Shown here: in pieces, positions 7,295-28,577 of the stretch | How positions within the stretch are numbered: position 1 is the stretch's first letter | Layout of the letters: every line of letters starts with the position of its first letter | Origin: an uncultured Lachnospiraceae bacterium | GTDB taxonomy: Bacteria > Bacillota > Clostridia > Lachnospirales > Lachnospiraceae | Assembly (NCBI GenBank): GCA_947564645.1 | Contig: CANOCU010000041.1 | Location: 1-32,100 of the forward strand | Direction: 5' to 3' | Length of the DNA: 32,100 nucleotides | Position numbers and translations under genes: made by a program | The notes under the pieces: model-generated | Databases searched by the model: none | What the model was told of the DNA's origin: nothing | Seen by the model: only the letters and a program-made list of their open reading frames with translations

Positions 7295-7303
7295 GTGGAA
7301 TTA

Positions 7304-7312
7304 TGCTAAAAT
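7304..7312 (+). promoter_or_regulatory. extended -10 promoter for the first glycosyltransferase operon
   Basis: TG at 7304-7305, one base, then TAAAAT (7307-7312, 5/6), an extended -10 element. The -35 region falls in the terminator T-run and is poor, as is tolerated with an extended -10. The predicted transcript starts about 70 bp before the first gene. Confidence 0.45.
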
Positions 7313-7334
7313 AGCGTGAGAAGAACTCATGACG

Positions 7335-7367
7335 GTTCGTGTGAAAACGATTTAAGTGTTTTCGAAC
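7335..7367 (+). other. 5' leader hairpin of the glycosyltransferase operon
   Basis: GTTCG (7335-7339) pairs with CGAAC (7363-7367) and AAAAC (7344-7348) with GTTTT (7358-7362). A 4-base bulge and a 9-base loop separate them. It lies in the untranslated leader between the promoter and the ribosome binding site (AGGAAGG). It could be a recognition element for processive antitermination such as LoaP, but no such protein is encoded here. Confidence 0.35.
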
Positions 7368-7387
7368 GGAAAGGAAGGGTATGGCTC

Positions 7388-9138: not shown

Positions 9139-9206
9139 AGGATTATGGATATGCGAATGAGGTTCTTCATGGGAATTTGTGTCAAAGATGACATGGGGGT
9201 GCAAGT

Positions 9207-11596: not shown

Positions 11597-11630
11597 TGTG
11601 ACAGGGTAATAGTTGGGAGAAAGTTGAGAA

Positions 11631-12425: not shown

Positions 12426-12467
12426 TGCAGCATCGCGTTAGAGAAGGTGAAAGGACAACGGCGACAG

Positions 12468-13607
12468 ATGATCTTATATATTACGGTGGCAGCAGTAACG
12501 GCGCTGCTTGCCGGTATGGTGAACTGCAGACCGGTGACGCAGCCATATAGAAGAACAAGGCAGCAGATGTGCAATCGCGTCTGTTTGTTTGCGGTTTTCC
12601 TGATTCTGTTCGCCTTGTCTGCCTGTCGGCTGAATGTGGGCAACGATTATGCCAAATATGTGGAATTTATGCACCTTGTCAACTGTAATGCCTATGTGCC
12701 TACGGAGATCGGGTTTAATCTGCTGGTGAAGTTTATCTATGGACTGTCAGGATATGAGAATTATCTGTTGGTGTTTGCGGTCTATGCGTTTGCCACGGTC
12801 GGTACTTTCCTGCATGCGATGTATGAGCAGAGTGAGGATTTTCCCTTAACCTTCTTTCTTTTTATGGCGCTTGGTTATTATTTCCAGACTTTCAGCACGG
12901 TCCGCTATTATCTGGCGCTGGCGCTTGCATTGTATTCCATGAAATTTGTCTTGCGCAGGCAATGGGGAAGGTTTGTGGTATTGATCCTGCTTGGCTCGAC
13001 GTTCCATAAATCGCTGCTGGTCGTGATACCGCTTTATATTCTGGCGGTTTTACCATGGAAAAGGTGGCAGCTTGTCCTGGGCGGGCTGTTCTGTACGACC
13101 TTCTTATTCTGCCAGGATTTCTATCTGAGACTGGTGATCCTGTTGTATCCGACCTATGAGGACACGGAGTATCTGGAAGGCGGTACGAGTTATATTAATA
13201 TTTTGCGATGCCTGGCTGTGCTTTTGTTTGCAGGAATCGTATATTTTGCCGGGAAACGCGGGCAGGATGAAACAAAAGCGATGACGGATGAGAGGAAGAA
13301 CGCGGAACATTTTTACTTTTATCTGAATCTTGGTGCGCTTGTGTTATATGTATTCTGCTCCTTTCTGCCGATCATATCCCGCATCGGTTATTATCTGACG
13401 GTCAGCCATATTTTCTATCTGCCGTTTCTGCTTAGACGGATAGAAGACCGGAAATGGCGCAGACTGTTTCGTATGGGGATATTGACGGCAGCAGTTCTGT
13501 ATTTTGCAGTCTATATGAGCAGAGCCGGTCAGGACGGAATGTTGATCCTGCCGTATCGGACCTTTTTCTTTCATGATATGGTCAATATTTTGTCGGATGT
13601 GAATTAA
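12468..13607 (+). CDS. EpsG-family membrane protein, probable polymerase
   Basis: 379 residues, about 10 membrane helices. NVGNDYAKYVEFM in the first long loop, ENYLLVFAVYAF, STVRYYLALALALY and LGSTFHKSLLVVIPLY are the landmarks of the EpsG family (B. subtilis EpsG), thought to act as Wzy-type polymerases of exopolysaccharide. I chose ATG 12468 because AAAGGA sits 12 bases upstream and family members start directly at the first helix; a GTG at 12447 would add 7 residues. It lies with the initiating transferase and Wzz-like gene, forming the assembly core of the first operon. Confidence 0.82.
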   Translation: MILYITVAAVTALLAGMVNCRPVTQPYRRTRQQMCNRVCLFAVFLILFALSACRLNVGNDYAKYVEFMHLVNCNAYVPTEIGFNLLVKFIYGLSGYENYLLVFAVYAFATVGTFLHAMYEQSEDFPLTFFLFMALGYYFQTFSTVRYYLALALALYSMKFVLRRQWGRFVVLILLGSTFHKSLLVVIPLYILAVLPWKRWQLVLGGLFCTTFLFCQDFYLRLVILLYPTYEDTEYLEGGTSYINILRCLAVLLFAGIVYFAGKRGQDETKAMTDERKNAEHFYFYLNLGALVLYVFCSFLPIISRIGYYLTVSHIFYLPFLLRRIEDRKWRRLFRMGILTAAVLYFAVYMSRAGQDGMLILPYRTFFFHDMVNILSDVN

Positions 13608-13666
13608 GCGCAGGGAGTTACGATACAGGAGAGCGGCGGCATAGCGTGCAGAGGAGAGGATATTGT

Positions 13667-14515
13667 ATGATTTTCAGTATCATTGTAGTCTGTTTGAATG
13701 CGGGAAAGAAGCTGCGGGAGACGGTGGAGAGTATTCGTCTGCAGACGGAGCAGGATTATGAGATCATCGTGAAAGACGGGATCTCTTCGGATGCAGTTAC
13801 GATAAGGGTTCTGGAGCAGCTCGAAAAGGATAGCACACATGATAGCCGGATTAAGGTAGTGCGGGGTGAGAAGGACCTGGGCATCTATGACGGTATGAAT
13901 CAGGCCGTGAAGTATGCGGGCGGCGATTATATCTATTTCTTAAACTGCGGGGACCGGTTCTGTGACCGGCAGGTATTGTCCGGAGTGCGGCAGGAGATTG
14001 AGAAACGAAGGAAAGAGAAGGCTCCCTGTATTTTCTATGGCAATATATGCGAGCAGCTGACGGGAAGCATGGTGCAGTCCAATCCCATGATCGACGATTT
14101 TGCATGTTATCGCAATCTGCCGTGTCATCAGGCCTGCTTCTATGCAGCGGATCTGCTCAGGAGGAGGGCATTCGACACCAGATACAGGGTACGGGCGGAC
14201 TACGAGCACTTTCTGTGGTGTTATTACAGAGGCGGCGCCATGCCGGTATATATGGCTGTCACGGTGGCATTCTATGAAGGCGGCGGGTTTTCCGAGACAG
14301 GGGCCAACAGGAAAAGATCGAAACGGGAACACAGGGAGATCGTATCAAACTATATGCCCGCAGGCAAGGTACTTTGGTATCGGACGATCATGCTGCTTAC
14401 ATTGGCGCCACTGCGGACGTGGATTGCGGAGAATCCGGCTACAGCGGGGATATATCAGTCACTGAAGAAGAAGTTGTACAGGGCGGTGAGAGGCTCGGAA
14501 AAGGGGAAAGCATGA
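13667..14515 (+). CDS. glycosyltransferase family 2 (WcaE-like)
   Basis: 282 residues. FSIIVVCLNAGKKLRETVES, then EIIVKDGISSDAVT, DLGIYDGMNQAVKYAGGDYIYFLNCGD. The 'GIYDxMN ... FLNxGD' combination is typical of the WcaE-like GT2 branch found in colanic acid and other polysaccharide clusters. The ATG at 13667 follows GAGGAGAGG at 7 bases. The last bases overlap the next gene by 4 (ATGA), showing translational coupling. Linkage made is unknown. Confidence 0.83.
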   Translation: MIFSIIVVCLNAGKKLRETVESIRLQTEQDYEIIVKDGISSDAVTIRVLEQLEKDSTHDSRIKVVRGEKDLGIYDGMNQAVKYAGGDYIYFLNCGDRFCDRQVLSGVRQEIEKRRKEKAPCIFYGNICEQLTGSMVQSNPMIDDFACYRNLPCHQACFYAADLLRRRAFDTRYRVRADYEHFLWCYYRGGAMPVYMAVTVAFYEGGGFSETGANRKRSKREHREIVSNYMPAGKVLWYRTIMLLTLAPLRTWIAENPATAGIYQSLKKKLYRAVRGSEKGKA

Positions 14516-15798
14516 AGGTATTGTGGATATGTAATATTATGATTCCTACGATCGCCAGACAGTTGGGAGTTTCCCACAGCAACAGAGAGGGATGGCTGAG
14601 CGGTCTTTTGGAGAGGGTGGCTCTGGAGAGAGGAAGGAATCGGATCGAACTGGGGATTGCGTTTCCGGTAGAGGAATCCATGGGGAATCTGCAGCGGAAT
14701 ATGCAGCTGGGGGAGAGCATGTCCTGCCGGTGCTACGGGTTTCTGGAGAATCTGGATACGCCGGAAGTTTACGACACCGGATTGGAGACACGATTTCAGG
14801 AGATCCTGCAGGATTTTGAACCGGACATCCTGCATGTATTCGGGACGGAATTTCCACATGCGCTGGCAAGTGTTAAAGTGTTCGGGCATCCCGAGAGAAC
14901 ATTGATCAGTGTGCAGGGGTTGTGCAGCTGCATCGCGGAGGAGTACATGGCCGATCTGCCGGTTAAGGTACAGCGTCAGGTCACATTGCGGGACAGGATC
15001 AGACAGGACAGTCTCAGGCAGCAGCAGAAGAAATTCAAGAAGCGCGGCGAGCATGAGAAAGAGGCCCTGCGTATGACCGGTCATATCGCAGGCAGGACGG
15101 ATTTTGACCGGGCCCAGACGGCCAAGATCAACCCTGAGGCAGAATACCACTATCTGAATGAGACATTGCGGGGCATTTTCTATCGTGACAGATGGAAGCG
15201 AACGACATGTGAGCCATATAGTATCTTTTTAAGTCAGGGGGATTATCCGCTTAAGGGCTTCCACTATCTTCTGCAGGCATTGCCGAAGGTATTGGAACAG
15301 TTTCCGGAGACGCATGTTTATGTAGCGGGAAGTAATATCATCGACACGCAGACATGGCAGGAGAGATTGAAATTATCGGCCTATGGCAAGTATTTAAGAA
15401 AACTGATCAAGGAGAAGCGCTTAAGCGAGCGGGTGACGATGCTTGGCAGATTATCGGCGGAGGATATGAAGGCGCAGTTCCTGCGAAGTCATCTTTTCGT
15501 GCTGCCTTCGGCCCTGGAGAACTCACCCAATTCGTTGGGAGAAGCCATGCTTCTGGGGGTGCCCTGTGTCGCGGCAGATGTGGGCGGCGTACATAATCTG
15601 CTGACAGACGGCGGAGACGGTATGCTGTATCCTGCAGGCGATGTGGAAGCTTTGGCGGACAGGATCATTGAGACTTTTACCAAGGAAGCGATCGTGGAAC
15701 GTTTCTCCGACAATGCCAGAAAACATGCGCGGGTCAATCATGATGCAGAGCAGAATTATTATCGGTTGATTCGTATTTACCGGGAGATGTTCTCATGA
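14512..15798 (+). CDS. glycosyltransferase family 4
   Basis: 428 residues. A GT-B enzyme: N-terminal acceptor half starting KVLWICNIMIPTIARQLG, C-terminal donor half with PLKGFHYLLQALPKVL, LSERVTMLGRLSAEDMKAQF, and the GT4 signature LPSALENSPNSLGEAMLLGVPCVAADVGG, in which the E...E pair binds the nucleotide sugar. The middle (about residues 165-215) is a charged insertion rich in Arg, Gln and Lys. ATG overlaps the preceding stop, and the TGA overlaps the next ATG, so three genes are coupled. Sugar specificity unknown. Confidence 0.85.
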   Translation: MKVLWICNIMIPTIARQLGVSHSNREGWLSGLLERVALERGRNRIELGIAFPVEESMGNLQRNMQLGESMSCRCYGFLENLDTPEVYDTGLETRFQEILQDFEPDILHVFGTEFPHALASVKVFGHPERTLISVQGLCSCIAEEYMADLPVKVQRQVTLRDRIRQDSLRQQQKKFKKRGEHEKEALRMTGHIAGRTDFDRAQTAKINPEAEYHYLNETLRGIFYRDRWKRTTCEPYSIFLSQGDYPLKGFHYLLQALPKVLEQFPETHVYVAGSNIIDTQTWQERLKLSAYGKYLRKLIKEKRLSERVTMLGRLSAEDMKAQFLRSHLFVLPSALENSPNSLGEAMLLGVPCVAADVGGVHNLLTDGGDGMLYPAGDVEALADRIIETFTKEAIVERFSDNARKHARVNHDAEQNYYRLIRIYREMFS

Positions 15799-16952
15799 CT
15801 TTTACCTTTACCTTTGTATCCAACTATATCAATCATCACCAGATACCGCTGTGTGAGGCGCTTTACAGGCAGATGGGAGAGAATTTTACTTTTATCCAGA
15901 CCATGCCCATGGAGGCGGAGCGGATCGCTATGGGGTGGGGCGTGGATGTGTATGCGCTGCCCTATGTTCGGTGCCTGTATGAGGAAGAATATGAGTGCCG
16001 CAAGAGGATCGCGGAAAGCGATGTGGTATTGTTTGGCTGGACACAGAGAGAGGATATCGTAGCGTCCAGACTTGCGTCCGGCAAGGCGACGATGCGTGTG
16101 AGTGAGCGGCTGTACCGGGAAGGGCAGTGGAAGGCAGTCTCACCGCGTGGACTTATGGCGAAATATCGTGAACATATTAAGTATCGAAAAGAAAATGTGT
16201 GCATGCTGTGTGCCGGGGCATATGCAGCGTCCGATTTTCATCTGATCGGGGCATATCCGGGCAAGCTGTTCCGGTGGGGGTACTTTACAAAGCTGCGGAT
16301 TTACAGTGAGGAGCAGTTTGAACAGATGAAGATAGAGGACGGCAGGCTGCATATCGTGTGGGCAGGACGGTTCATTCCGCTGAAACATCCGGAATATGTG
16401 GTGCGGCTGGCGCAGTCGCTGTATGCGAAAGGATATCCGTTTTTCGTGCATATGCTGGGAGACGGGGAGTTGGAGCCGCAGATCAGGCGGGATGTGGAGG
16501 CAGCAGGGCTGACGGAGTACTTCCGGTTTTATGGGTATACCGGGCCGGAACGGGTGCGGGATGTGATGGAGCAATGCCACATTCACCTTTTTACCAGTAA
16601 CCATCTGGAAGGCTGGGGGGCCGTGGTCAATGAGGGGATGAACAGCGGCTGTGTGGAAGTGGTCAACGAACAGGTGGGGGCAGCGCCTTATCTGATCCGG
16701 CATGGGGAAAACGGGCTGCTCTATTCGAAGGGTAAGTACGAGAAGCTGGAGGCATTGGTGCTTGATCTGTTCGAAAACTGGGAGGTGCGCAAAGGTATGG
16801 GGCGTGCGGCTTACGAGACGATCCGGGATCTGTGGAATGCGGAATGTGCGGCGAAGGAGCTTCTGCGGTTTGAGGAAAGGCTGATGCGCGGGGAGATCGT
16901 GCCGGCGGCGGAGGGACCGCTTAGTGCGGCGCCGGTGGTGCGGCCGAGATAA
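15795..16952 (+). CDS. glycosyltransferase family 4
   Basis: 385 residues. The N-terminal half begins FTFVSNYINHHQIPLCEAL; the C-terminal half has LHIVWAGRFIPLKHPEYVVRLAQ, MLGDGELEPQIRRDVEAAGL and HLFTSNHLEGWGAVVNEGMNSGC. The E-x7-E element of GT4 enzymes appears as EGWGAVVNE. No membrane helices. Coupled to the upstream GT4 by an ATGA overlap. The last residues are Pro/Ala-rich and not conserved in character. Donor unknown. Confidence 0.83.
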   Translation: MTFTFTFVSNYINHHQIPLCEALYRQMGENFTFIQTMPMEAERIAMGWGVDVYALPYVRCLYEEEYECRKRIAESDVVLFGWTQREDIVASRLASGKATMRVSERLYREGQWKAVSPRGLMAKYREHIKYRKENVCMLCAGAYAASDFHLIGAYPGKLFRWGYFTKLRIYSEEQFEQMKIEDGRLHIVWAGRFIPLKHPEYVVRLAQSLYAKGYPFFVHMLGDGELEPQIRRDVEAAGLTEYFRFYGYTGPERVRDVMEQCHIHLFTSNHLEGWGAVVNEGMNSGCVEVVNEQVGAAPYLIRHGENGLLYSKGKYEKLEALVLDLFENWEVRKGMGRAAYETIRDLWNAECAAKELLRFEERLMRGEIVPAAEGPLSAAPVVRPR

Positions 16953-17046
16953 TAGGGGGCAATCGCTTCGGCATGGCGGTAAGAGTGAAAGAATCCGACA
17001 GTACTTTCACAACTTGTTTGTGCCTTGGGAAGGAATGGTTAAAAGT

Positions 17047-18051
17047 ATGACTGAAAAGATCAGCGTGATCATACCGGTATATAATTCGACAGACTGTCTG
17101 GAGCGATGCGTGAGGTCGGTCTGTGCGCAGACCTATGGAGAACTGGAGATTTTGCTGATCGACGACGGCTCTACGGACGGTACAGGAGAATTGTGCGAGC
17201 GGCTGGCCGCAGAGGATGCGCGTATCCGTGTTTACCATAAGGAGAATGGTGGCGCTTCTTCGGCGCGGAATATGGGAATCGGACTGGCATCGGGGGCGTA
17301 TCTGGGGTTTGTGGACAGTGACGATCACATCGAGCCGGAGATGTATGCGCTGATGATGGATGCCATGCATGAGCGGCCGGGGGATATCGTACAGATATCC
17401 CGGGATGAAGTGGATGAAGAGGGACGGCGTCTGCCGGATGTATGTATCCCGCCAAAACAGGCACGGTTTTGTGAGGCGGAAGACTTTCTGCGGGAGCTTT
17501 TGCTGCACAGGGGGGACTGCTCGTTTTGTACCAAGCTGGTCAGGAGGGAAATGTTCAGGAAACACCGCTTTCCGGAAGGGATGCTGAACGAAGATTTCAG
17601 ACTTCTGGTGGAAATGCTGCAGGAGACCCGGGGGATCACGATCCTGCCCGAACAGTGCTATCATGTGGTATGCCGGCAGCAGAGTACGACCCGCAGGAAG
17701 ACGAAGGACAGCTTTTCACGGGTTTTTATCGATATTGTGGTCAATGCGGACCGGATGCAGGAGCTTGTGGACAGGGCTTATCCAAATCTGCATGTATACG
17801 CGGTACGCTTTAATCTGTACCAGAGGCTGGATTATCTTCTTCATGTGCCGATTTCGCAGATGAAGAGAGAGAATGATTTCTACCGGCATGTGAAGCGCTA
17901 TTTGAGGCGGCACGTGAAAGATACGGTCACAAATCCGTATCTGACAGGGAAAAATAAAGGATATCTGCTGCTTCTGACCTCAGCGCCGAAACTGGTGCGG
18001 CAGGTACATGCATGGATAAGAATGGGGAGCCGAAATGAGAGAGTGGCTTGA
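17047..18051 (+). CDS. glycosyltransferase family 2
   Basis: 334 residues. KISVIIPVYNSTDCLERCVRSV, LLIDDGSTDGTGELCE, NGGASSARNMGI and FVDSDDHIEPEMY are a textbook GT-A GT2 series (DDGS and the SDD metal site). The C-terminal third is basic and may sit at the membrane surface. Of several in-frame ATGs, 17047 is preferred because AAGGAATGG is placed 9-13 bases upstream and the conserved sequence starts there. Its end overlaps the following gene by 17 bases. Confidence 0.85.
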   Translation: MTEKISVIIPVYNSTDCLERCVRSVCAQTYGELEILLIDDGSTDGTGELCERLAAEDARIRVYHKENGGASSARNMGIGLASGAYLGFVDSDDHIEPEMYALMMDAMHERPGDIVQISRDEVDEEGRRLPDVCIPPKQARFCEAEDFLRELLLHRGDCSFCTKLVRREMFRKHRFPEGMLNEDFRLLVEMLQETRGITILPEQCYHVVCRQQSTTRRKTKDSFSRVFIDIVVNADRMQELVDRAYPNLHVYAVRFNLYQRLDYLLHVPISQMKRENDFYRHVKRYLRRHVKDTVTNPYLTGKNKGYLLLLTSAPKLVRQVHAWIRMGSRNERVA

Positions 18052-19648
18052 GCAGGGGAAACGAATCAAAAGAAAATATCTTGTTCTATTTCTGATGATA
18101 TGGGCGGTGCAAATGGCAGCCGCCTTCTATTTCTGTATACAGAAACAGGGCTTTCATGAGGATGAGTATTATACTTATTATTCTACGGCGCGCACCAATG
18201 GATTTTACGTGGAGAACGGGCAGTGGATGGAGAGGGATACCTACCGGAATGAGTTTGTAGTGTTGCCGGGACAGGGATTCCGGTACGGACTGGTGAAGCA
18301 GGTGCAGTCCTGGGATGTGCATCCGCCGCTGTATTACTGGGTGTTCCATACCGTAGCGTCACTGGCGCCGGGCGTGTTCTCGAAATGGATTGGATTGTCG
18401 GTGAATCTGGCGTTGTGGGGGATTAATATCATATTGCTTGCCTATCTGGCATACCGGGTGAGCGGCCGGGACGCGCGGATGACGCTGCTTGTGACAGTTT
18501 TCTACGGATTGTCTCCTGCAGCCATGAGCGGCGTGGTCTTTATCAGGATGTATGAGATGCTTACTACTTTCGTTCTGCTGTGTGCGATCCTGCATGTGCG
18601 GGCGACGGAGCATATGCTCACGGGAAAGTGGGCGAAACTGCCGATGCTGCGTTGTCTGGCGCCGATGGCAGCGGTAACCTATCTGGGATTTTTGACACAG
18701 TACTATTATTTTATTTTTCTGTTTTATCTGGCAGCGGCGTTCGGTGTGTGGATGTTATGGAGGGAAAGAAAGATCCGGAACTGCCTGCGGTACGGTGTGA
18801 GTCAGGGGATAGCATTTCTATTGGCGTATCTGACATATCCGTCCTGCTTGGGACAGATGTTTCGGGGACAGAGAGGGGCGCAGGCCACGGAGAATTTCCT
18901 GGATCTGTCCAATACGCTGGAGAGGCTTGTATTCTTCCTCGAATTGCTGGATGAATATGTTTTCGCAAAAATGCTGCCGGTATTTCTGCTGCTGCTTGTG
19001 CTGCTGGCGGTGACTGCATATAGCAGAAGGCGGCTGCGGAAGCTTCAGAATGGCCCGGCATATGGGATTTTGCTTTTTGCCGTGGCAGGGTATTTTCTGA
19101 CGGTGTCTAAGACAGCACTTTTGTTGGGAGATACATCCAACCGATATCAGCTGCCGGTCTATGGCATGATCGTACTGCTGCTTATGCAGGCGATCCGGAA
19201 GACGGGCGGTTTGTGGAAGCGGGTTTGGCTTGAAAGATATGGTTTTGTGATAGCGGCTGCGATCTGTCTTCTCATTGACGTGACCGGACTTATGGCCGGC
19301 AGAGTCGTATTCCTTTACCCGGAGGATCAGGAGCAGCTTCAATTCGCGAGGGAGAGGGAGCGGGAGAATATACCGGTGGTCTATCTGTATGAGCCGGGAG
19401 CGGAATGGTGTATCTGGGACGTGGCGGATGAACTGTTTGTCTATCCGGCGGTTTATTTTGCGGCCGCAGACAGCGCAGAGCAGATTACGGATGAGCGGAT
19501 AGAGAATGCGGAGTCAGTGGTGGTGTATGTGGCGGAAGGAGCAGATGAAGAGGAGCAGAAGAACAGAATCCTGAACAGCAACGGGAGAATTTCCAAGGGG
19601 CGGTGTGTGTTTCAGGAAAAATATTGCAGTGTTTATCTCTACGAATGA
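18035..19648 (+). CDS. GT-C membrane glycosyltransferase (GT39/ArnT-like)
   Basis: 537 residues with about 10-11 membrane helices and a soluble C-terminal domain of about 120 residues. After the first helix comes FHEDEYYTYY and later SWDVHPPLYYWVFH; an acidic pair in the first extracytoplasmic loop and a DxHPPLYY motif are marks of the PMT/ArnT-like GT-C family. These enzymes use polyprenyl-phosphate sugars on the outer side of the membrane, so the GtrB-like enzyme at 7388 is a natural supplier. It is the last gene before the terminator at 19663. Acceptor unknown. Confidence 0.75.
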   Translation: MREWLEQGKRIKRKYLVLFLMIWAVQMAAAFYFCIQKQGFHEDEYYTYYSTARTNGFYVENGQWMERDTYRNEFVVLPGQGFRYGLVKQVQSWDVHPPLYYWVFHTVASLAPGVFSKWIGLSVNLALWGINIILLAYLAYRVSGRDARMTLLVTVFYGLSPAAMSGVVFIRMYEMLTTFVLLCAILHVRATEHMLTGKWAKLPMLRCLAPMAAVTYLGFLTQYYYFIFLFYLAAAFGVWMLWRERKIRNCLRYGVSQGIAFLLAYLTYPSCLGQMFRGQRGAQATENFLDLSNTLERLVFFLELLDEYVFAKMLPVFLLLLVLLAVTAYSRRRLRKLQNGPAYGILLFAVAGYFLTVSKTALLLGDTSNRYQLPVYGMIVLLLMQAIRKTGGLWKRVWLERYGFVIAAAICLLIDVTGLMAGRVVFLYPEDQEQLQFARERERENIPVVYLYEPGAEWCIWDVADELFVYPAVYFAAADSAEQITDERIENAESVVVYVAEGADEEEQKNRILNSNGRISKGRCVFQEKYCSVYLYE

Positions 19649-19662: not shown

Positions 19663-19710
19663 AAAAGTGTTAGGTCAGCGGATGGAAAGCCTGTTGATCT
19701 AACACTTTTT
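19663..19710 (+). terminator. intrinsic terminator ending the first glycosyltransferase operon
   Basis: AAAAGTGTTA (19663-19672) pairs with TAACACTTTT (19700-19709). The stem continues inward with nine further pairs, three of them G-U, to a loop near GATGGAAAG, and TTTTT closes the 3' side. It lies 15 bp after the stop codon and only 34 bp before the left recombination site. Transcription from upstream should therefore not reach the second operon efficiently. Confidence 0.85.
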
Positions 19711-19743: not shown

Positions 19744-19771
19744 TTTTCGTAAAATACCGGATTTTACGAAA
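19744..19771 (+). repeat. left inverted repeat of the recombinase cassette
   Basis: Positions 19745-19755 read TTTCGTAAAAT and 19761-19771 read ATTTTACGAAA, a perfect 11-bp palindrome around the core ACCGG (19756-19760). With the extra T at 19744 it is the exact reverse complement of 21191-21218. Two 11-bp arms around a short asymmetric core are what a tyrosine recombinase crossover site looks like. Confidence 0.85.
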
Positions 19772-19801
19772 GTGATATCGTCTTATAGAATCTGCCGGCT
19801 A

Positions 19802-19831
19802 TGTATAAATTGGACAATTCATCGCCTGCAA
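19802..19831 (-). promoter_or_regulatory. weak leftward promoter inside the invertible cassette
   Basis: On the minus strand, -35 TTGCAG (19831-19826) and -10 TATACA (19807-19802) with an 18-bp spacer. In the present orientation it points out through the left repeat against the end of the upstream operon. After inversion it would point rightward into the gene at 21300. Matches to consensus are moderate (3/6 and 4/6), so this is tentative. Confidence 0.3.
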
Positions 19832-19859
19832 ACATGTCCTAATTTAGAAGTTTACCATA

Positions 19860-19887
19860 TTTCCATGAAAAAAGCAACCGTTATAAA
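19860..19887 (+). promoter_or_regulatory. promoter of the recombinase gene
   Basis: -35 TTTCCA (19860-19865, 4/6) and -10 TATAAA (19882-19887, 5/6) with a 16-bp spacer, about 100 bp before the recombinase start. It lies inside the inverted repeats. It faces the second operon in the present orientation and would face away after inversion. Confidence 0.5.
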
Positions 19888-19960
19888 ACTAAATTCCTAA
19901 GACTGAGGGACTTCTATATGGTTAAGGAGAAGGTTTCTATCTGTAAAAGACAGGTTTATG

Positions 19961-19971
19961 ACCGTCAAAAA
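19961..19971 (+). repeat. direct repeat copy 1, possible recombinase arm site
   Basis: ACCGTCAAAAA occurs here and again at 21131-21141, once on each side of the recombinase gene and inside the inverted repeats. The recombinase has an arm-binding type N-terminal domain, which in integrases binds short repeats next to the crossover site. Function is inferred from position only. Confidence 0.3.
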
Positions 19972-19995
19972 TTTTGTCAGGAAAGGAGTTACGAA

Positions 19996-21117
19996 ATGCC
20001 GAAAAGAGGAGAAAACATTTACAGGAGAAAAGACGGAAGATGGGAGGGAAGGATCTGGAGCCGTTCTGCTTCGAAGAAAAGAACTTATAGGTCCGTATAT
20101 GGAAAAAGCTACCGTGAGGTGAAGGACAAGATGTGCCGGATCAGACAGAAGGCAGACTTTAAGGATTGGAATACACATACCTTGTCGGAAGCGGCCGAGA
20201 TATGGATACGGTCGCAGTCCGTATATTGGAAAGCCGGAACCTGCTCTGCCTATAAGCGAATGCTTCAGAAGTATATCATTCCCTGTTTGGGAAATATGCC
20301 GATCGATGAGATTACCAATCAGACGCTGTATGAGTTTGCGGAAAAGATAAATCGGGAGCAGGGTAAAACGCCTCTTTCCAGAAATTACATGTTTCAGATC
20401 TGTTCCATGGTACGCAGGATCTTATATTATATGAGCAGACACTATGGAGACAGTTTGGCGATACCGATGAACCCGGTCGCAAAAGAACAGGTGTGCCATG
20501 TTCTTTTGCCAAACGAATCTTCGCTGATGACTTTAGAGAAGTATCTATATGCCAATACTGACCAGGATACATGCATTGGAATCTTACTAGCGCTTCATAC
20601 GGGAATCCGTATAGGCGAGTTGAGCGCATTGACATGGAGAGATATTGATCTCGAGGAAGGCGTTCTGTATATCAGAAGAAATATTCTGCGAGTGTACGTA
20701 GAAGATGAAGCGGACAGAAAGGAAGTCGTGACGCAGGTGATTGAACAGAAGCCAAAATCATCGGATTCTGTCAGGATCATCCCGCTTCCTCTATGTCTGC
20801 TTACGCCGTTACGGGAGCATCGGAAAGAAGAGGATGCTTATGTGATCAGCGGTGTCAAAGCGGCCTGGGCAGAACCGAGGACGATCCAGTATCGGTTCAG
20901 AAGCATTCTCAAGCGCTGTCAGATTGAATACTTTAATTTCCATATGCTTCGTCATGTCTTTGCCAGCCGGTGTGTATCCATGGGATTAGACGTAAAAAGT
21001 TTAAGTGAGATTTTGGGGCACAGCAGCATACAGCTGACGCTCAGCTTATATGTACATTCCTCGATACAGCAAAAAAGGCTGCTGATGCAGCAGTATGATT
21101 CTCTCATAGGAAAGTGA
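19996..21117 (+). CDS. tyrosine recombinase (integrase family)
   Basis: 373 residues. The N-terminal 60 residues (IYRRKDGRWEGRI and on) resemble the AP2-like arm-DNA-binding domain of Tn916/phage-type integrases, followed by a core-binding domain (about 62-165) and the catalytic domain. All active-site residues are present: Arg205 in HTGIRIGELSALTW, Lys254, His316 and Arg319 in HMLRH, His342 in LGHSS and the nucleophile Tyr352 in LSLYVH. The ATG at 19996 has GAAAGGAG 7 bases upstream; the longer open frame from 19918 is probably not translated. No excisionase or other mobility gene lies nearby. The gene is enclosed by 28-bp inverted repeats, suggesting that it flips its own segment. Confidence 0.93.
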   Translation: MPKRGENIYRRKDGRWEGRIWSRSASKKRTYRSVYGKSYREVKDKMCRIRQKADFKDWNTHTLSEAAEIWIRSQSVYWKAGTCSAYKRMLQKYIIPCLGNMPIDEITNQTLYEFAEKINREQGKTPLSRNYMFQICSMVRRILYYMSRHYGDSLAIPMNPVAKEQVCHVLLPNESSLMTLEKYLYANTDQDTCIGILLALHTGIRIGELSALTWRDIDLEEGVLYIRRNILRVYVEDEADRKEVVTQVIEQKPKSSDSVRIIPLPLCLLTPLREHRKEEDAYVISGVKAAWAEPRTIQYRFRSILKRCQIEYFNFHMLRHVFASRCVSMGLDVKSLSEILGHSSIQLTLSLYVHSSIQQKRLLMQQYDSLIGK

Positions 21118-21130
21118 TCCGGGCTCTATA

Positions 21131-21141
21131 ACCGTCAAAAA
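21131..21141 (+). repeat. direct repeat copy 2, possible recombinase arm site
   Basis: The second ACCGTCAAAAA, 14 bp after the recombinase stop codon and 50 bp before the right inverted repeat. See the copy at 19961. Confidence 0.3.
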
Positions 21142-21147
21142 GATCGT

Positions 21148-21185
21148 CACAGCATGGCAGAATCCACTGTCTGTGCGCCTTTTTT
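21148..21185 (+). terminator. weak terminator after the recombinase gene
   Basis: CACAG (21148-21152) pairs with CTGTG (21171-21175), with further short pairing CAG/CTG inside. Six T's follow at 21180-21185 after a 4-base gap. The stem is imperfect, so partial read-through into the second operon is plausible in the present orientation. Confidence 0.4.
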
Positions 21186-21190
21186 GCTCA

Positions 21191-21218
21191 TTTCGTAAAA
21201 TCCGGTATTTTACGAAAA
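21191..21218 (-). repeat. right inverted repeat of the recombinase cassette
   Basis: TTTCGTAAAAT (21191-21201), core CCGGT (21202-21206), ATTTTACGAAA (21207-21217) and one more A. It is the exact reverse complement of 19744-19771. The core orientation is opposite to the left site, which sets the two sites as inverted rather than direct even though the arms are palindromic. Confidence 0.85.
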
Positions 21219-21299: not shown

Positions 21300-22421
21300 A
21301 TGATTGAAATAGGTGGAAAAAGGTACAGGACGGCGATTGTGCATGACTGGTTTTGCAATATGGGCGGTGGAGATAAGGTTGCGGAAGCCTTTCTGGATAT
21401 TATGCCACAATCCCCCGTGTATACTTGCTGTTATTTGGAGAAAAGCCTGACGCCCAGACTGCGGGCGGCAGATGTCAAAGCTTCTTTTCTGCAGAAATTT
21501 CTGAACCAGAAGAAAGACAATCATCAGAAGTTCCTGCCGTTAATGCCTGCTGCTTTTGAAAATTTTGATATGAATGAATATGACATCGTGTTAAGCAGCA
21601 GTTCCTGCTGCGCGAAAGGTGTGATCACCAGACCGGGAGCGCTGCATTTCTGTTACTGCCATACGCCAATGCGTTATGCGTGGGAATTTTTCGGGGAATA
21701 TACGGAAGACATGAGGCCGGTGAAACGAAGGATCATAGGCCTGATCATGGATTATATCAGAATATGGGATGTGATATCTGCCAACAGAGTGGATTACTTT
21801 ATCGCAAATTCACAGAATGTGGCGAACCGTATCTGGAAGCATTACAGAAGAAAAGCGACGGTCATATATCCGCCGATCGATACGGCTTATTTTACGCCCG
21901 GAAAAGAAGACGGGGATTTCTATCTGTGCATTTCCCGCCTGGTGAAATACAAAAGGATCGATCTGGCGGTAAGGGTCTGTAATAAACTGCAGCTGCCGCT
22001 TGTTGTGATCGGGCAGGGAGCAGAATATGAGGATTTGAAGAAGATGGCGGGGAAGACGGTGCAGATCCTGGGAAGACAGCCTGACAGTGTGATCAGAGAC
22101 CATTACCGCAGATGTAAGGCATTTATTTTTCCGGGAGAAGAAGACTTCGGCATGACACCGCTCGAGGCGCAGGCTTGCGGAAGACCGGTCATAGCCTACG
22201 GAAAAGGGGGAGCGCTTGAGACGGTAATAGACGGAAAGACTGGCGTATTTTTCACAGAGCAGACGGTGGACAGTCTTGTGGAGGGAATCAAAAGATTGCA
22301 GGCAATTCAGATCGATAAGGATGCGTGCAGAGAGAATGCGGAGCGGTTTTCATTCCAGACCTTCAGGGAACGGATGCAGGAGGAGATAGAAAGAAGGTGC
22401 CGGGATGAATGTTTTCTATAG
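21300..22421 (+). CDS. glycosyltransferase family 4 (WbaZ-like)
   Basis: 373 residues. TAIVHDWFCNMGGGDKVAEAF at the start is typical of the WbaZ-type GT4 group (mannosyl- and related transferases). CYCHTPMRYAWEF, SQNVANRIWKHYRRKATVIYPPID, LCISRLVKYKRIDLAV and FPGEEDFGMTPLEAQACGRPVIAYGKGGALE complete the GT-B pattern, with the E-x7-E nucleotide-binding motif. ATG 21300 has AGGAGAG 6 bases upstream. It is the first gene after the invertible cassette, 82 bp beyond the right repeat, and so the gene most directly exposed to a switch. It overlaps the next gene by 17 bases. Confidence 0.87.
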   Translation: MIEIGGKRYRTAIVHDWFCNMGGGDKVAEAFLDIMPQSPVYTCCYLEKSLTPRLRAADVKASFLQKFLNQKKDNHQKFLPLMPAAFENFDMNEYDIVLSSSSCCAKGVITRPGALHFCYCHTPMRYAWEFFGEYTEDMRPVKRRIIGLIMDYIRIWDVISANRVDYFIANSQNVANRIWKHYRRKATVIYPPIDTAYFTPGKEDGDFYLCISRLVKYKRIDLAVRVCNKLQLPLVVIGQGAEYEDLKKMAGKTVQILGRQPDSVIRDHYRRCKAFIFPGEEDFGMTPLEAQACGRPVIAYGKGGALETVIDGKTGVFFTEQTVDSLVEGIKRLQAIQIDKDACRENAERFSFQTFRERMQEEIERRCRDECFL

Positions 22422-23187
22422 AATGAAGAAGGGCACGGAGTACTTGAATTATGGGCGGGAAATCATTACCGGTTACTGTGAAAAGTGTGCGGAGGATTTT
22501 GCGGAAGGTGAAAGTATCAGGATTCTGGATCTGGGGGCAGGCACCGGTGTAGACCTGATAAACTGCAGGAAAAAACTGGTGGGGGGGGGTAAGACCGGAA
22601 TCGAGCTGTGGGCTCTGGAAAGCTATGCACCTAATGTGGAACGACTAAGGAGGCAGGGGATCAGGGTCAGATGCTTTAATATTGAAAGGGACCGGTTTCC
22701 CTTTCAGGATGAGAGTATGGATTTTATCATTATGAACCAGATCCTGGAACATACCAAGGAGATTTTCTGGATCTTTGGCGAAGTTTCCAGAGTATTAAAA
22801 CGAGGCGGCGGATGCATTGTGGGCGTTCCGAATCTGGCGTCCTTACATAACCGGATTGCGCTGCTTATCGGAAGACAGCCCACGTCGATCAGGGCTCTGG
22901 GACCGCATGTGAGAGGCTTTACGAGGAAAGATTTCGTAAAGTTTATCGAGACAGACGGGTATTTTAAGGCAGAATATTTTGCCGGAAGCAATTTTTATCC
23001 GTTTCCGCGGCAGGTGAGCCGGATTCTTGCCAGGATATTTCCGAATCTGGCGGTTTCCGTCTTCTGGGGGATCAGGAGAACCGGGAAGGAAGGATGCTTT
23101 ATTCATATTCTGGATAGCAGATTCTATGAGACACCTTATTACAGAGGGCAGGAGAATGAGGATGGCACACAGGAAGATCGTATTTGA
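22405..23187 (+). CDS. class I SAM-dependent methyltransferase with G9 tract
   Basis: 260 residues. The SAM-binding motif ILDLGAGTGVDLI sits near residues 44-56, then NIERDRFPFQDESMDFIIMNQILEHT and FGEVSRVLKRGGGCIVGVPNL, matching the Methyltransf_11/23 group. It probably methylates a sugar of the repeat unit or the growing chain. Codons 59-62 are encoded by a run of nine G's (22581-22589), in frame here. Gain of one G would place a TAA directly after the tract; loss of one leads to an early stop. The reading frame overlaps both neighbours (17 bases before, 26 after), so a frameshift could also disturb coupled translation. Confidence 0.82.
   Translation: MNVFYRMKKGTEYLNYGREIITGYCEKCAEDFAEGESIRILDLGAGTGVDLINCRKKLVGGGKTGIELWALESYAPNVERLRRQGIRVRCFNIERDRFPFQDESMDFIIMNQILEHTKEIFWIFGEVSRVLKRGGGCIVGVPNLASLHNRIALLIGRQPTSIRALGPHVRGFTRKDFVKFIETDGYFKAEYFAGSNFYPFPRQVSRILARIFPNLAVSVFWGIRRTGKEGCFIHILDSRFYETPYYRGQENEDGTQEDRI
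22581..22589 (+). repeat. G9 homopolymer tract inside the methyltransferase gene
   Basis: Nine consecutive G's in a coding region, the longest G-run noticed in the window, preceded closely by an A-run at 22570-22575. Homopolymers of this length are prone to slipped-strand mispairing, a known cause of on/off switching of surface-glycan genes in other bacteria. Whether it varies here is unknown; it could also be a sequencing-length uncertainty. Confidence 0.6.
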
Positions 23188-24223
23188 CGGACAGGTCTAT
23201 GCCGGCAGGATAAATGGCATGTATCGGTATACGGATGAAATACTGCGGGAATTTGACAAGCTGATCAGCCGGAATGAGTTTGAGATCATAGTGCCGGAAA
23301 ATGTGGATCTGTCAGGTAGATTCCGGAATATCAGGGTGGTTCACTATGGAAGGGTAAAGGGACCGTTGTGGACGCAGATCTGCCTGCTTGCTTATTTGAT
23401 CCAAAACAGGGCAATCAGCATCGGATTCTGCAATGTAACGCCTCTCTTTAAGCCTGGCATTACGGTTGTTCATGATATTGCCTACAAGGTATTGCAGAAA
23501 CAGTATAGAAATCTATACGGCAGGCTGTCACAGTATTGGCACAGGTTAAACTACTGGGTCATAGCCCGCAGCGGAGTTCCTGTGATAACGGTAAGTAATT
23601 TTTCAAAAAAGCAGATTTCCCAGATTTATAATGTAAACCCGCGGCGGATCACCGTGATCGCAAACGGTTGGCAGCATTACGAAAGAATAGGGGAGGATGA
23701 CAGCATCTTCGAGGAGATTCCTGTGCTTAAGAAGGGGAACTATTTCTTCTCGCTCGGAAGTCTGGAGGAACGCAAGAACTTTAAATGGGTAGTGGAGACT
23801 GCAAAGCGGCACAGGGGAGAATATTTTGTCGTTGCCGGAAGTGATGTGAGGAATGTAAAGAACAAGCCGGAGTTTGATCGGATTCCCAATCTGCTCTTCT
23901 TAGGCTATATCAGCGATGAAAGGGCGAAAAGCCTTATGCGGAATTGTAAGGCATTCCTGTTTCCTTCTACTTTTGAAGGATTTGGGATTCCGCCGCTTGA
24001 AGCATTTAGTGTGGGGACAAAGGTAGTCTGTGCACGGGCCGCCAGCTTGCCGGAGATCTGCGAGGATGCAGCTGTCTATGTGAATCCTTATGAGTATGAT
24101 CTGGATCTGAAGATGTTGGATGGTATCGATAAGAGCGAATGCTACGAGGGAGTTTTGTCCAAGTACAGTTGGGAGCGGTCAGCGCGGGAATTGTATGATC
24201 TCCTGAAGAAGTATGGCCTGTGA
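23162..24223 (+). CDS. glycosyltransferase family 4
   Basis: 353 residues. KIVFDGQVYAGRINGMYRYTDEILREF starts a GT-B fold related to mannosyltransferase-like GT4 enzymes. Later parts are ITVSNFSKKQISQIY, FFSLGSLEERKNFKWVVE, LLFLGYISDERAKSLMRNCKAFLFPSTFEGFGIPPLEAFSVG with the conserved E-x7-E. The ATG at 23162 is preferred over one 6 bases earlier because CAGGAGA is 7 bases upstream. It begins within the last 26 bases of the methyltransferase gene. Donor and acceptor unknown. Confidence 0.85.
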   Translation: MAHRKIVFDGQVYAGRINGMYRYTDEILREFDKLISRNEFEIIVPENVDLSGRFRNIRVVHYGRVKGPLWTQICLLAYLIQNRAISIGFCNVTPLFKPGITVVHDIAYKVLQKQYRNLYGRLSQYWHRLNYWVIARSGVPVITVSNFSKKQISQIYNVNPRRITVIANGWQHYERIGEDDSIFEEIPVLKKGNYFFSLGSLEERKNFKWVVETAKRHRGEYFVVAGSDVRNVKNKPEFDRIPNLLFLGYISDERAKSLMRNCKAFLFPSTFEGFGIPPLEAFSVGTKVVCARAASLPEICEDAAVYVNPYEYDLDLKMLDGIDKSECYEGVLSKYSWERSARELYDLLKKYGL

Positions 24224-24242
24224 TAAATGAGGAAAAAGGAAG

Positions 24243-25514
24243 ATGTGGCAAAAAATAAAAGCAATCAGACGGGACTACATAAATGACATTTTATTTTATG
24301 TTCTGCTTTTCTTTGGTCTGTTCGATGCCGCGAGAAACTATACACCGCTGCCGGAATGGATCGGCTATTCGAAGGATATTGCGATTTTCCTGCTCTATGT
24401 GTTGAATCGGAAAAAGATCCGGTTTTTACCGCAAAAAATGATTGTCATTCAATGTGTTTTTTGGTTCTTATGGGGCTTTGCGGGTATTTTTTATTCAGGC
24501 GGATATTCTCCGGTAAAGATTGTGATCGGGATCATAAAGTATCTGGAATTATTTATGCTGATCACTATTTTTCATAATTGGGACAGCCTGTTCTGTTTAA
24601 GTATCGGGCGGGCGCTTAATCTGTATCTATACGGGAGCATGGTCATCTTTGTTGTCAATATCATTGGTTACTATATCCCCAATCCGATCTGCTATGTGGG
24701 GTTGAGCAATGGAAATGTGACGGCAGGTTTTTATGGTGGGAGGCTCTCTGTAGGACAGCCGCCGATTGTGGTATTGCCAATGTTATTTTCCTGTGTATAC
24801 CTGCTTCTTTGCAGGAGCGGCTCTGTTTTTAAAGTATTATATTTGATCACAGGAATTGTGCTTTCGACAACGAATACAGGCATTGTTGCATTAGCTGCCT
24901 GCTTTATTGTTTATGGAATTTATTTTTTAATCAGTAAGAAAAGAATTCCGGGAAAGAATCTTATCGCAGTATTGATTGTTGTGGGTTTGCTTGTGGTCTT
25001 TCACAGACAGCTGATGTTGATCTTTGATGATCAGATTGAAATGTACAGGCGCAAGATCTTCAGTATCCTGCAGGGTGGAAAAGATGCGTCTATGGAAAGC
25101 AGAAAAGCAAACTGGATGTTTGCTTTAAACACACTGCAGACAAATGCGCAGTGGCTGTTTGGGCGTGGCATGTATGGATTCTGTATCGGGGGAGAATACC
25201 ACTACATTGAGAATACCTATGTTTCTATGCTTTGTACGTATGGTCTTCTGGGACTGGGAATGTTTCTGGTGTATCTGGCCAACCTGCTCATTCAGTATAT
25301 TCGAGCCTTTTTTGATAACCACAATGAAATATATGTTTTTGGAATATGCCTGGTACTTATCTATTTATTACATATGTATACACTTGATACTTTAATAATC
25401 TATACAATGTCTTTTGCTTTCAGTTTTTTCTATACGATTATTAGTAGAGGAGTGATGCAGGATGGAAATGAAGAGCAAAAAACAGTTTGCAATTTTGGTG
25501 AGGATCGATCATGA
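24243..25514 (+). CDS. O-antigen polymerase/ligase-like membrane protein (Wzy/WaaL type)
   Basis: 423 residues with about 11-12 membrane helices. The large loop between late helices contains SMESRKANWMFALNTL, FGRGMYGFCIGG and HYIENTYVSMLCTYGLLGLGMFLVYL. This 'GxG ... H..N.Y...L...GLLG' arrangement is the usual signature of the O-antigen ligase/polymerase superfamily. It probably joins repeat units in the periplasmic-side compartment. The cluster also encodes an EpsG-type polymerase at 12468, so two polymerases may serve different glycans. RBS AAAGGAAG is directly upstream; the TGA overlaps the GT8 start. Confidence 0.8.
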   Translation: MWQKIKAIRRDYINDILFYVLLFFGLFDAARNYTPLPEWIGYSKDIAIFLLYVLNRKKIRFLPQKMIVIQCVFWFLWGFAGIFYSGGYSPVKIVIGIIKYLELFMLITIFHNWDSLFCLSIGRALNLYLYGSMVIFVVNIIGYYIPNPICYVGLSNGNVTAGFYGGRLSVGQPPIVVLPMLFSCVYLLLCRSGSVFKVLYLITGIVLSTTNTGIVALAACFIVYGIYFLISKKRIPGKNLIAVLIVVGLLVVFHRQLMLIFDDQIEMYRRKIFSILQGGKDASMESRKANWMFALNTLQTNAQWLFGRGMYGFCIGGEYHYIENTYVSMLCTYGLLGLGMFLVYLANLLIQYIRAFFDNHNEIYVFGICLVLIYLLHMYTLDTLIIYTMSFAFSFFYTIISRGVMQDGNEEQKTVCNFGEDRS

Positions 25515-26503
25515 ATATCATGTATGCAACAGATAAAAATTATGCACCGGTTTGTGCAGCAAGCATAACATCCCTTCTTGAGAATAATCGGGAATGTGGA
25601 CAGATCAGGATATTTCTGTTCGCAGATCGTCTGGGAATCTATGAAGAGAAGATGACCGGACTTGTGAATAAGTATGGACGAGAGATAGAAGTGATACAGG
25701 CCGCTCCAATAGTGGATGCCTTTAAGAAAATGAATGTTCCCAAAGTCAGCGGCAGCTATTCTTCTTATGTCAGATTGGCTGCAAGTGAGAAATTGAAGGA
25801 GATCGATAAATTTTTATACATAGATTGTGATACGCTGATTTTTCATAATATAGAAGAACTTTATGACAGGAATATTGAAAGATATGCAGCAGGGGCAGTG
25901 TGTGATGGTATATCTGCCAGATGTAATCTGGCGCTTGGAAGAACGATTCAGGACTTGTATTTTAATGCGGGAATATTGCTTGTAAATGCTGAATATTGGC
26001 GCAAAAATGATGTGTTGCACGCAATGATCGACGACCTGAACAAGTACAACTTAAATCAGACAACGACGGGAAGTGATCAGGAAATGATCAATTTTACTTT
26101 ATACAAAAAAATATATAAACTTCCTTTAAAGTATAATGTGCTAGCCCAAAACAGAATATATGAACCGCGAAAAATGCGGTATATGATTGAGAAGAATGAT
26201 CAAAATTATTACTCCCTTTCGGAAATGAAGGAAGCGAAGGAAGATCCATACATTGTTCATTTTGCGAGCAGCACATTGATCAGGCCATGGTTCTTAAACA
26301 GTTATGATCCGTTGGTCGGAAAATGGGACGATTATTTATCCCGAAGCGGCTTTTCTTTTGAAAAAAAAGAACAAAAAATATCCCGGTGGCAAAAAATGTG
26401 TATTTTAGCACTTAAAACGTTACCTGCCCCGATTTATATGGTTCTTAAAAGGTATGAAAACAGGATGAAGCAGTATTATATCAGAACATGTAAGAGAAAA
26501 TGA
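25511..26503 (+). CDS. glycosyltransferase family 8
   Basis: 330 residues. MNIMYATDKNYAPVCAASITSLLENN, SSYVRLAASEKL, the DxD motif in FLYIDCDTLIF (Asp105, Asp107), LYFNAGILLVNAEYWR, TGSDQEMIN and IVHFASSTLIRPW match the retaining GT8 galactosyl/glucosyltransferases (RfaJ/LgtC-like) in order. The C-terminal 60 residues are basic and probably associate with the membrane. It is coupled to the upstream polymerase by an ATGA overlap. Base composition is clearly more AT-rich from here to the end of the operon. Confidence 0.9.
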   Translation: MNIMYATDKNYAPVCAASITSLLENNRECGQIRIFLFADRLGIYEEKMTGLVNKYGREIEVIQAAPIVDAFKKMNVPKVSGSYSSYVRLAASEKLKEIDKFLYIDCDTLIFHNIEELYDRNIERYAAGAVCDGISARCNLALGRTIQDLYFNAGILLVNAEYWRKNDVLHAMIDDLNKYNLNQTTTGSDQEMINFTLYKKIYKLPLKYNVLAQNRIYEPRKMRYMIEKNDQNYYSLSEMKEAKEDPYIVHFASSTLIRPWFLNSYDPLVGKWDDYLSRSGFSFEKKEQKISRWQKMCILALKTLPAPIYMVLKRYENRMKQYYIRTCKRK

Positions 26504-26579
26504 GACAAGCTTTATCGTAATATATGTGTTTTTGAAGAGGAAGCAAGACGAAAAAACAAATTTAAGCAGGCGAATGATA

Positions 26580-27440
26580 ATGCAAAATGATCTAGTCAGT
26601 GTAATTATACCTACCTATAACCGGGCAAACTCTTTAGGCCGGGCAATCGAGAGTGTTCTGAATCAGACCTATCAGTTTCTGGAATGTATTATTGTGGACG
26701 ATGGTTCCACAGATAATACCGGGGAAATGGTGAGGAGGATTTCTGATGAAAGAGTGGTATATGTGCGTCTCGATCAAAATGCCGGTGCGTGTCATGCGAG
26801 AAATATAGGTATCTTAAAAGCAAGAGGGGATTATATTGCTTTTCAGGACAGCGATGATATTTGGTATGAGGACAAGCTGGAAAAAGAACTGGCCTGTATA
26901 GAAGAAAAGAATGCGGATGGAGTATTTTGCCAGATGTATTCCAAAAGATATGAAAAGGCTAAAGGTATAAAGTTCCCCGGGTCTTTTTTCACGCAGCGTA
27001 AGGTTACTATAAGGAGAATCCTTACACGTAATTTTGCCAGTACACAGACATTGCTGATCAGAAGATCTGTGTTACGGGAGATCGTATTTGATGAGAAACT
27101 GCCTCGTTTTCAGGATTGGGATTTAATGATAAGACTGGTAAAAGGATATAAGGTTGTATATTTGAAGGAAATTCTTGTCGAACAGAATATGAGCCTGGAT
27201 AGTATAGGCAATGATCCTCAAAAGGGAATTGAGGGAATAAATCATATTATGGAAAAATATGCCAACGACTATAAGAGGTACCCGAAATTAAACTATTTCA
27301 ATTATTATTTATTAGGATCGTATCAAATGAAATTAGGTGAAAAGTCATCGGAAGCATTATGGAATTCGCTACGCAGGAATCCCTTTTCCTGCAAATGTTG
27401 GATAAAGTGGCTCAGTGCAAAATTTTTGATGAAAAAGTAG
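26580..27440 (+). CDS. glycosyltransferase family 2
   Basis: 286 residues from the ATG at 26580. VSVIIPTYNRANSLGRAIESVLNQTY, CIIVDDGSTDNTGEMV, NAGACHARNIGI and AFQDSDDIWYEDKLEKEL show all GT-A motifs. The protein ends with a cysteine- and lysine-rich tail. The start is uncertain: ATGs at 26574 and 26526 are in frame, but AGCAGG at 26565-26570 suits 26580 best. The gene is AT-rich compared with the GT2 genes of the first operon. Substrates unknown. Confidence 0.85.
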   Translation: MQNDLVSVIIPTYNRANSLGRAIESVLNQTYQFLECIIVDDGSTDNTGEMVRRISDERVVYVRLDQNAGACHARNIGILKARGDYIAFQDSDDIWYEDKLEKELACIEEKNADGVFCQMYSKRYEKAKGIKFPGSFFTQRKVTIRRILTRNFASTQTLLIRRSVLREIVFDEKLPRFQDWDLMIRLVKGYKVVYLKEILVEQNMSLDSIGNDPQKGIEGINHIMEKYANDYKRYPKLNYFNYYLLGSYQMKLGEKSSEALWNSLRRNPFSCKCWIKWLSAKFLMKK

Positions 27441-27470
27441 TTATCGTAAACAAGATTTGAAAGGCATGGT

Positions 27471-28553: not shown

Positions 28554-28577
28554 AAAGAGGTAGAGAAGGATATTTTT

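Follow-up and report, generated by a model that had tools for sequence, protein, structure and literature searches.

The segment 19744–21218 (1,475 bp), situated between two polysaccharide gene blocks, is quite likely an autonomous inversion cassette, which carries its own recombinase and a predicted outward promoter and would switch the operon at 21300–29975. The window, that is, the whole stretch of DNA analysed, is the entire contig C41 (32,100 bp) of genome G000, which consists of 140 contigs (4.1 Mb). The features of the segment and its surroundings are listed in Table 1. The original prediction described a complete tyrosine recombinase gene between two exact 28-bp inverted copies of one sequence, both of them intergenic, with a terminator outside the left copy and a glycosyltransferase operon beginning 82 bp beyond the right copy; the new analysis confirms this architecture in all these points, the terminator being a hairpin at about 19663–19709 and the first operon gene starting with the ATG at 21300. 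It was also proposed that the recombinase flips its own gene and promoter and so controls the operon at 21.3–30.0 kb, and comparative tests support this reading at the level of sequence. The control of the operon, left there in either direction, can be refined: the self-carried promoter is retained, it is predicted to read outward via the recombinase 5' side, and the orientation seen is the predicted OFF state.

Table 1. Predicted features of the inversion cassette and the flanking polysaccharide genes (positions in the window).
Feature	Coordinates	Strand	Comment
Upstream polysaccharide cluster	1856..19648	+	closed by terminator; not predicted to be switched
Hairpin terminator	19663..19709	.	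outside left site; predicted to stop leftward transcripts also
Left inverted site	19744..19771	+	core TTTCGTAAAAT-ACCGG-ATTTTACGAAA at 19745-19771
Predicted outward promoter	19849..19877	-	-35 TTGCTT (19872-19877), 17 bp, extended -10 TGG-TAAACT (19849-19854)
Possible recombinase promoter	19860..19887	+	TTTCCA-16-TATAAA, p 0.47; low confidence
Leader motif, putative arm-type site	19962..19979	+	CCGTCAAAAATTTTGTCA, directly 5' of ribosome-binding site
Tyrosine recombinase	19996..21117	+	373 aa; ORF open from 19918; RKDGRW N-terminus, SAM-like and catalytic domains
Tail motif, putative arm-type site	21132..21149	+	CCGTCAAAAAGATCGTCA, directly 3' of stop codon, direct orientation
Right inverted site	21191..21218	-	exact reverse complement of left site; identical spacer read inward
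Predicted target operon	21300..29975	+	GT4, methyltransferase, GT4, Wzy_C polymerase, GT8, GT2, unknown, Polysacc_synt (Wzx-type) flippase

In the proposed mechanism, the recombinase would bind both inverted 27-bp core sites, and probably also the two internal arm-type motifs, and would recombine the core sites inside their identical 5-bp spacer, so that the segment flips. The leader promoter would read outward through the recombinase 5' side. In the assembled orientation it would fire left into the terminator, leaving the operon OFF; after inversion it would fire into the operon, which would then be ON. As the recombinase would flip with its own leader, the two would remain together in either state. 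Since the predicted outward promoter points away from the operon, the assembled orientation probably corresponds to OFF and the flipped one to ON. We infer flipping in the window strain, the promoter activity, the ON/OFF assignment and an effect on the surface polysaccharide.

The tyrosine recombinase is the only substantial gene within the segment. The 28-bp copies are exact and extend to 31 nt at 97% once the flanking bases are counted. It had been overlooked earlier that each copy is itself a core site, formed by two inverted 11-bp arms and an asymmetric 5-bp spacer (11-5-11, 27 bp in total), and that the spacer ACCGG reads inward from both cassette ends. The arm pattern, with at most three mismatches allowed, has five matches across the 4.1-Mb genome and the reversed-pattern control has none; thus the site pair of the window is not due to chance. 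Two of the matches are at the window cassette, two surround a paralogous recombinase (62% identical) on contig C128, whose own site pair has the spacer ATTTG, and the third site of this genome, with the spacer AATAA, is at base 1 of contig C47. In the sister species G099, the ATTTG cassette precedes a CpsB gene, identified by Pfam, and then Wzz- and kinase-like genes, identified by eye. A glycosyltransferase-like gene (by eye) follows the AATAA site both on C47 and at the G099 counterpart on C78. A further site of G099 (locus L092, C59:17897–17923), probably the left site of the third cassette, with the spacer AATAA, adjoins a tRNA-like gene (by eye); it is 35 bases from the contig end, and the recombinase for the AATAA cassette was not found in the G099 bin.

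The recombinase start at 19996 was picked by eye, using the upstream ribosome-binding site AGGAAAGGAG and comparison with relatives. The protein matches Phage_integrase (PF00589, E 3.1e-23) and the SAM-like and central domains in Pfam. All its family matches are to tyrosine recombinases or integrases, with no match to the serine recombinases (resolvase/invertase fold). The catalytic motif of tyrosine recombinases is R...HxxR...H/W...Y; residues R231, H342, R345, H368 and Y378 (399-aa numbering) do not vary among the 55 aligned relatives, and we assume that they play the respective catalytic roles in the window recombinase. The closest solved structure is an Int protein, 6emy, aligned chiefly over the catalytic domain, which we take to be Int of Tn1549. 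The N-terminal RKDGRW motif presumably resembles that of Tn916 Int, and 53 of the 55 aligned relatives have the R-DGRW N-terminus.

The putative arm-type motifs are direct repeats. The motif CCGTCAAAAnnnnGTCA occurs in the direct orientation in the leaders of 18 out of 56 loci, besides the window, and in 12 of 56 tails, and in the reversed orientation in none, these counts being judged against shuffles that preserve base composition only. The leader motif is present in 13 of the 16 loci that are at least 40% identical, the exceptions being L050, L095 and L053. We infer that the leader and tail motifs are arm-type binding sites. The recombinases of L050 and L095 have no N-terminal RKDGRW domain, and their cassettes also have no full CCGTCA-type motif; judged from the alignment range, this domain is missing in L102, too. 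The majority of the distant relatives have the N-terminus but not the motif.

The predicted cassette belongs to a family, of which dozens of homologues adjoin a variety of genes. Relatives of the recombinase are found in 36 of 77 genomes of the genus (E≤1e-45), in 27 of 299 genomes of the family (E≤1e-60) and in 10 of 398 genomes of the phylum (E≤1e-45), the own genome being counted each time. Among named records the closest recombinases are mostly from the Lachnospiraceae. The genome-contig scan, from which records of the own genome were possibly excluded, yielded 11 relatives, the best being 64% identical; near-identical copies elsewhere were rejected for the scanned contigs. A viral origin was also rejected, as the viral contigs contained neither a recombinase relative nor an exact copy of the site.

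Of 90 loci taken for longer flanks, some of which share one genome, 83 have a recombinase match and seven do not. A flanking inverted pair is present at 60 of the 83 loci with a related recombinase, the window included; the other 23 have no inverted pair scoring at least 15, some of them being clipped by contig ends. Outside the family, nine of ten loci have such a pair. Hence the architecture tends to accompany the protein, to identities as low as about 35%. For the comparisons below, two of the 60 pairs were removed, L072 as a duplicate of L166, and L172 as the repeat was judged to be due to chance, although this locus nonetheless has a CpsB-type operon on the 5' side. Further removal of L051, a near-duplicate of L052, and L054, which has a 166-bp repeat, left 56 pairs, and the promoter set consists of 55 cassettes (without L038). 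The loci across all comparisons are relatives, and hence the counts are not independent.

The spacer is identical within all 56 pairs (0 mismatches at 280 positions), whereas the arms are mismatched at 99 of 1232 positions. In the 26 pairs whose arms have two or more mismatches, the respective values are 0/130 and 88/572. As the pairs were detected by matching, the identity within a pair is partly built in, but the arms, detected likewise, still differ. The centre of L052 looks misplaced by eye and was counted as printed. The spacers mostly differ between loci, there being 43 distinct ones among the 56 pairs. Matched spacers accompanied by diverging arms are the mark of predicted strand-exchange sites: the identity of the spacers fits conservative strand exchange, which needs it, and would be unexpected for transposon ends.

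The leaders of the 55 cassettes were scored for extended sigma-70 promoters against dinucleotide shuffles. On the minus strand, p≤0.05 was observed in 42 of 55 cassettes, many of the promoters being TTGACA-17-TATAAT, compared to 5 of 55 on the plus strand. In tails and flanks, the same threshold was reached in 2–5 of 55–56 cases, with shuffles retaining base composition only. The same type of shuffles was used for the cassettes from outside the family, where the outward promoter was seen in 7 of 9, against 1 of 9 on the other strand, and in an earlier run on 17 loci, with p<0.1 in seven minus-strand and two plus-strand leaders. The strong signal stems from more distant relatives and is weaker in the window, where p is 0.15 by the weighted score, and in its close relatives: of the 14 scored loci that are at least 44% identical, five reach p≤0.05 on the minus strand of the leader and two on the plus strand, and in two of these five (L044, L096) the promoter is at other positions. 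However, in 15 close relatives hand-picked by identity (window included), the pattern TTGnnn-17-TAnnnT is present on the minus strand in 14, with 1.6 expected from dinucleotide shuffles, and on the plus strand in two, with 1.2 expected. The minus-strand pattern means that the predicted promoter diverges from the recombinase; in the window it reads left, through the left site. A plus-strand leader promoter as the promoter of the switch was rejected, its scores being near chance and the TATAAT-like motifs on this strand often being reverse complements of the outward -10 box.

A hairpin similar to that of the window is seen by eye in the sister species G099. In the family, hairpins with the energy of at most -8 are found in 42 of 56 5' flanks and 33 of 56 3' flanks, a modest asymmetry, some of the counted hairpins being the near-palindromic sites themselves.

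Several observations are consistent with inversion. At least five of 49 arm-matching sites in the genus fall exactly at contig ends (the end of C128 and the start of C47 in G000; the end of C10 and the starts of C36 and C78 in G099), this being a lower bound, since the contig ends are known for part of the contigs. At the window's own locus in G099, the left flank (C36) stops at the counterpart of base 19771 and the right flank (C10) at that of base 21191; the recombinase of this locus was not found in the G099 bin. Contig C128 ends at the outer edge of the right site, the assembly being continuous through the left site. Such a break is the branch expected from inversion, with the cassette joined to either flank, and not from simple loss. 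The contig ends at the sites could also have another assembly cause.

Further, six loci (L025, L061, L142, L150, L151, L158) have the cassette reversed beside a homologous target: the target homologue is on the recombinase 5' side in these loci and on the 3' side in others, e.g. in 10 of 14 loci of target cluster 0. In the best reversed pair, L025 and L141, the identity in the best tblastx segments is 83% for the recombinase and 86% for the target. The reversed loci L061 and L158 have a strong hairpin on the 3' flank, that is, on the opposite one, as would be expected if the cassette alone flipped. No reversed copy of the window locus itself was seen, nor were reversed cassettes found among close relatives, and the 3'-side neighbour is codirectional with the recombinase at 49 of 55 loci; thus flipping may be rare. 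In two of the six remaining loci, L056 and L153, the non-codirectional neighbours are short ORFs ahead of a longer codirectional ORF.

Two loci are atypical. The 166-bp inverted repeats of L054 extend over the first codons of two homologous sugar-transferase genes, which are the first genes on each side and both read away from the cassette. Given homologous genes on both sides, a flip there could choose between two polysaccharide operons rather than act as an ON/OFF switch. In G083 (locus L105, C1:461048–461437), there is an inverted pair of the family type, 363 bp apart from start to start, and the surrounding 18 kb contain no recombinase of the cassette family. Perhaps this is a miniature switch flipped in trans.

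The main rival reading has the opposite polarity: the present orientation would be ON via read-through from the recombinase across the right site, and inversion would disconnect the operon. The codirectionality of the recombinase and the 3'-side gene mentioned above is consistent with this, as are the weakness of the outward promoter in the window itself, the start of the operon close to the right site, and the apparent lack of a strong terminator in the stretch that separates the operon from the recombinase. However, the conserved promoter pattern points the opposite way, plus-strand leader promoters are near chance, and the stretch from the right site to the operon contains no plus-strand promoter candidate. 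We consider this polarity rather unlikely. It is improbable, moreover, that the segment is a relic, i.e. a former inversion cassette that has become locked and whose recombinase persists by chance or in a different role. Both window junctions are indeed assembled, in one orientation, and the promoter of the window scores below those of distant relatives, but the 28-bp repeats are exact, the catalytic residues are invariant, and the contigs of the sister species break exactly at both inner edges of the same site pair. The recombinase could also act mainly in trans on other sites, or else the sites could serve another recombinase. The G083 pair shows that trans action is possible in the family, but both close recombinases of G000 have their own flanking pairs with their own spacers, and just five arm-matching sites exist in the genome; this makes the least plausible case, with a very small chance of being correct.

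There is also little chance that the segment is a small mobile element, a transposon or an integrative element, that has inverted repeats at its ends by coincidence. Homologous cassettes do adjoin many different genes, and the recombinase resembles a solved Int of the transposon type and has the RKDGRW motif at its start. The original prediction named homologues at unrelated loci flanked by target duplications as the sign of a transposon; different neighbours are seen, but target duplications of at least 3 bp were observed at just one of 56 loci. This near-absence and the spacers, matched within pairs and different between loci, for which transposition has no need, disfavour the transposon reading. 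Neither does it agree with the conserved one-sided outward promoter, nor with the composition of the listed cassettes (1.2–1.7 kb), none of which contains a cargo gene.

The cassette shares features with several known systems. Like the integrases of Tn916 and Tn1549, its recombinase has a 6emy-like catalytic domain and an N-terminus of the RKDGRW type, and there are core sites and internal repeats. Tn916-like elements have mobile cargo, are excised and have unmatched coupling sequences; here, in contrast, no cargo is seen, the end spacers are matched, duplications are absent (with the single exception given above), and the geometry is that of inversion. The H segment of Salmonella, flipped by Hin, contains a promoter, and its orientation sets transcription of the flagellin operon, resulting in phase variation; Hin belongs to the serine recombinases, and its system includes hix sites and an enhancer. 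In both cases the recombinase gene and an outward promoter, predicted for the cassette, are inside the segment, and the orientation decides, here by prediction, whether the neighbouring operon is transcribed. Unlike Hin, the cassette has a tyrosine integrase, 11-5-11 core sites, putative arm-type motifs and a predicted promoter at the recombinase 5' end.

RecV of Clostridioides difficile (cwpV, flg and Cdi sites) is also a tyrosine recombinase, with inverted repeats before surface-related operons in the Clostridia, but in the family considered here each recombinase is enclosed in a cassette of its own, with an individual spacer. The capsule promoters of Bacteroides (Mpi and relatives) and gut invertons are similar in having an invertible promoter before polysaccharide operons. 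PMC5903667 cites Hin to illustrate a recombinase encoded inside the segment that is inverted, and describes RecV as acting at several genomic sites and Mpi as a master serine recombinase. The hCom2 survey (PMC11892184) reports enriched invertase families as neighbours, not overlapping with the inverton, and, in the Clostridia, an inverton group 139 with invertase group 35. A search of the open-access literature produced among the matches listed no inverton with an internal tyrosine recombinase in such bacteria. Surveys of invertons may have overlooked these cassettes, as the segments are 1.2–1.7 kb long and contain a gene.

On balance we favour the view that the family is an undescribed class of autonomous promoter cassettes from several classes of one phylum, in which an integrase of the Tn916/Tn1549 type no longer transposes but inverts itself along with an outward promoter, being thus a tyrosine counterpart of Hin. 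Copies would be placed before capsule, LCP/sortase, secreted-protein, signalling and dead-TnpB operons, and insulated from each other by different 5-bp spacers. If this is true, part of the surface-polysaccharide phase variation in gut Lachnospiraceae is driven by self-contained cassettes, which can be recognised in sequence by the recombinase, inverted sites with matched spacers, the outward promoter and the terminator, and whose ON/OFF states can be read from an assembly or a read set. The cassette would be a small portable memory element, showing a route from a transposon-type integrase to a regulatory switch whose spacer is particular to the locus.

The two polysaccharide blocks of the window differ in composition. 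The left block (1856–19648) encodes a sugar transferase, an EpsG polymerase and many glycosyltransferases, and three of its scanned proteins have no Pfam match. The sole flippase match among the scanned proteins is in the right block, genes 1856, 2652 and 5736 of the left block being outside the scan. The polysaccharide cluster also contains a gene for a 126-aa protein (6828–7208), whose single match is to the C-terminal DNA-binding domain of Spo0A (PF08769, E 4.2e-36); it has no receiver domain.

The targets of the family cassettes are in many cases surface-related, but not in all. The genes immediately downstream that were identified by Pfam encode CpsB, an LCP protein, a sugar transferase, a GlcNAc epimerase and a PP2C phosphatase. 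One more encodes a sortase-like protein, with the Pfam match below the curated cut-off, and others, lacking Pfam matches, look secreted by eye. Fourteen cassettes, forming target cluster 0, adjoin TnpB-like proteins (e.g. L144:7809–9113). The one such protein scanned has a Cas12f1-like TNB domain (E 3.8e-7) and weak matches to TnpB/Cas12f among solved structures. The usual RuvC motifs are acidic, and the TldR proteins are RNA-guided repressors that have lost the acidic residues of RuvC. In the TnpB-like targets these residues also look lost by eye (e.g. GLSVGI, KKxNAA). Possibly, these targets are phase-variable dead TnpB regulators.
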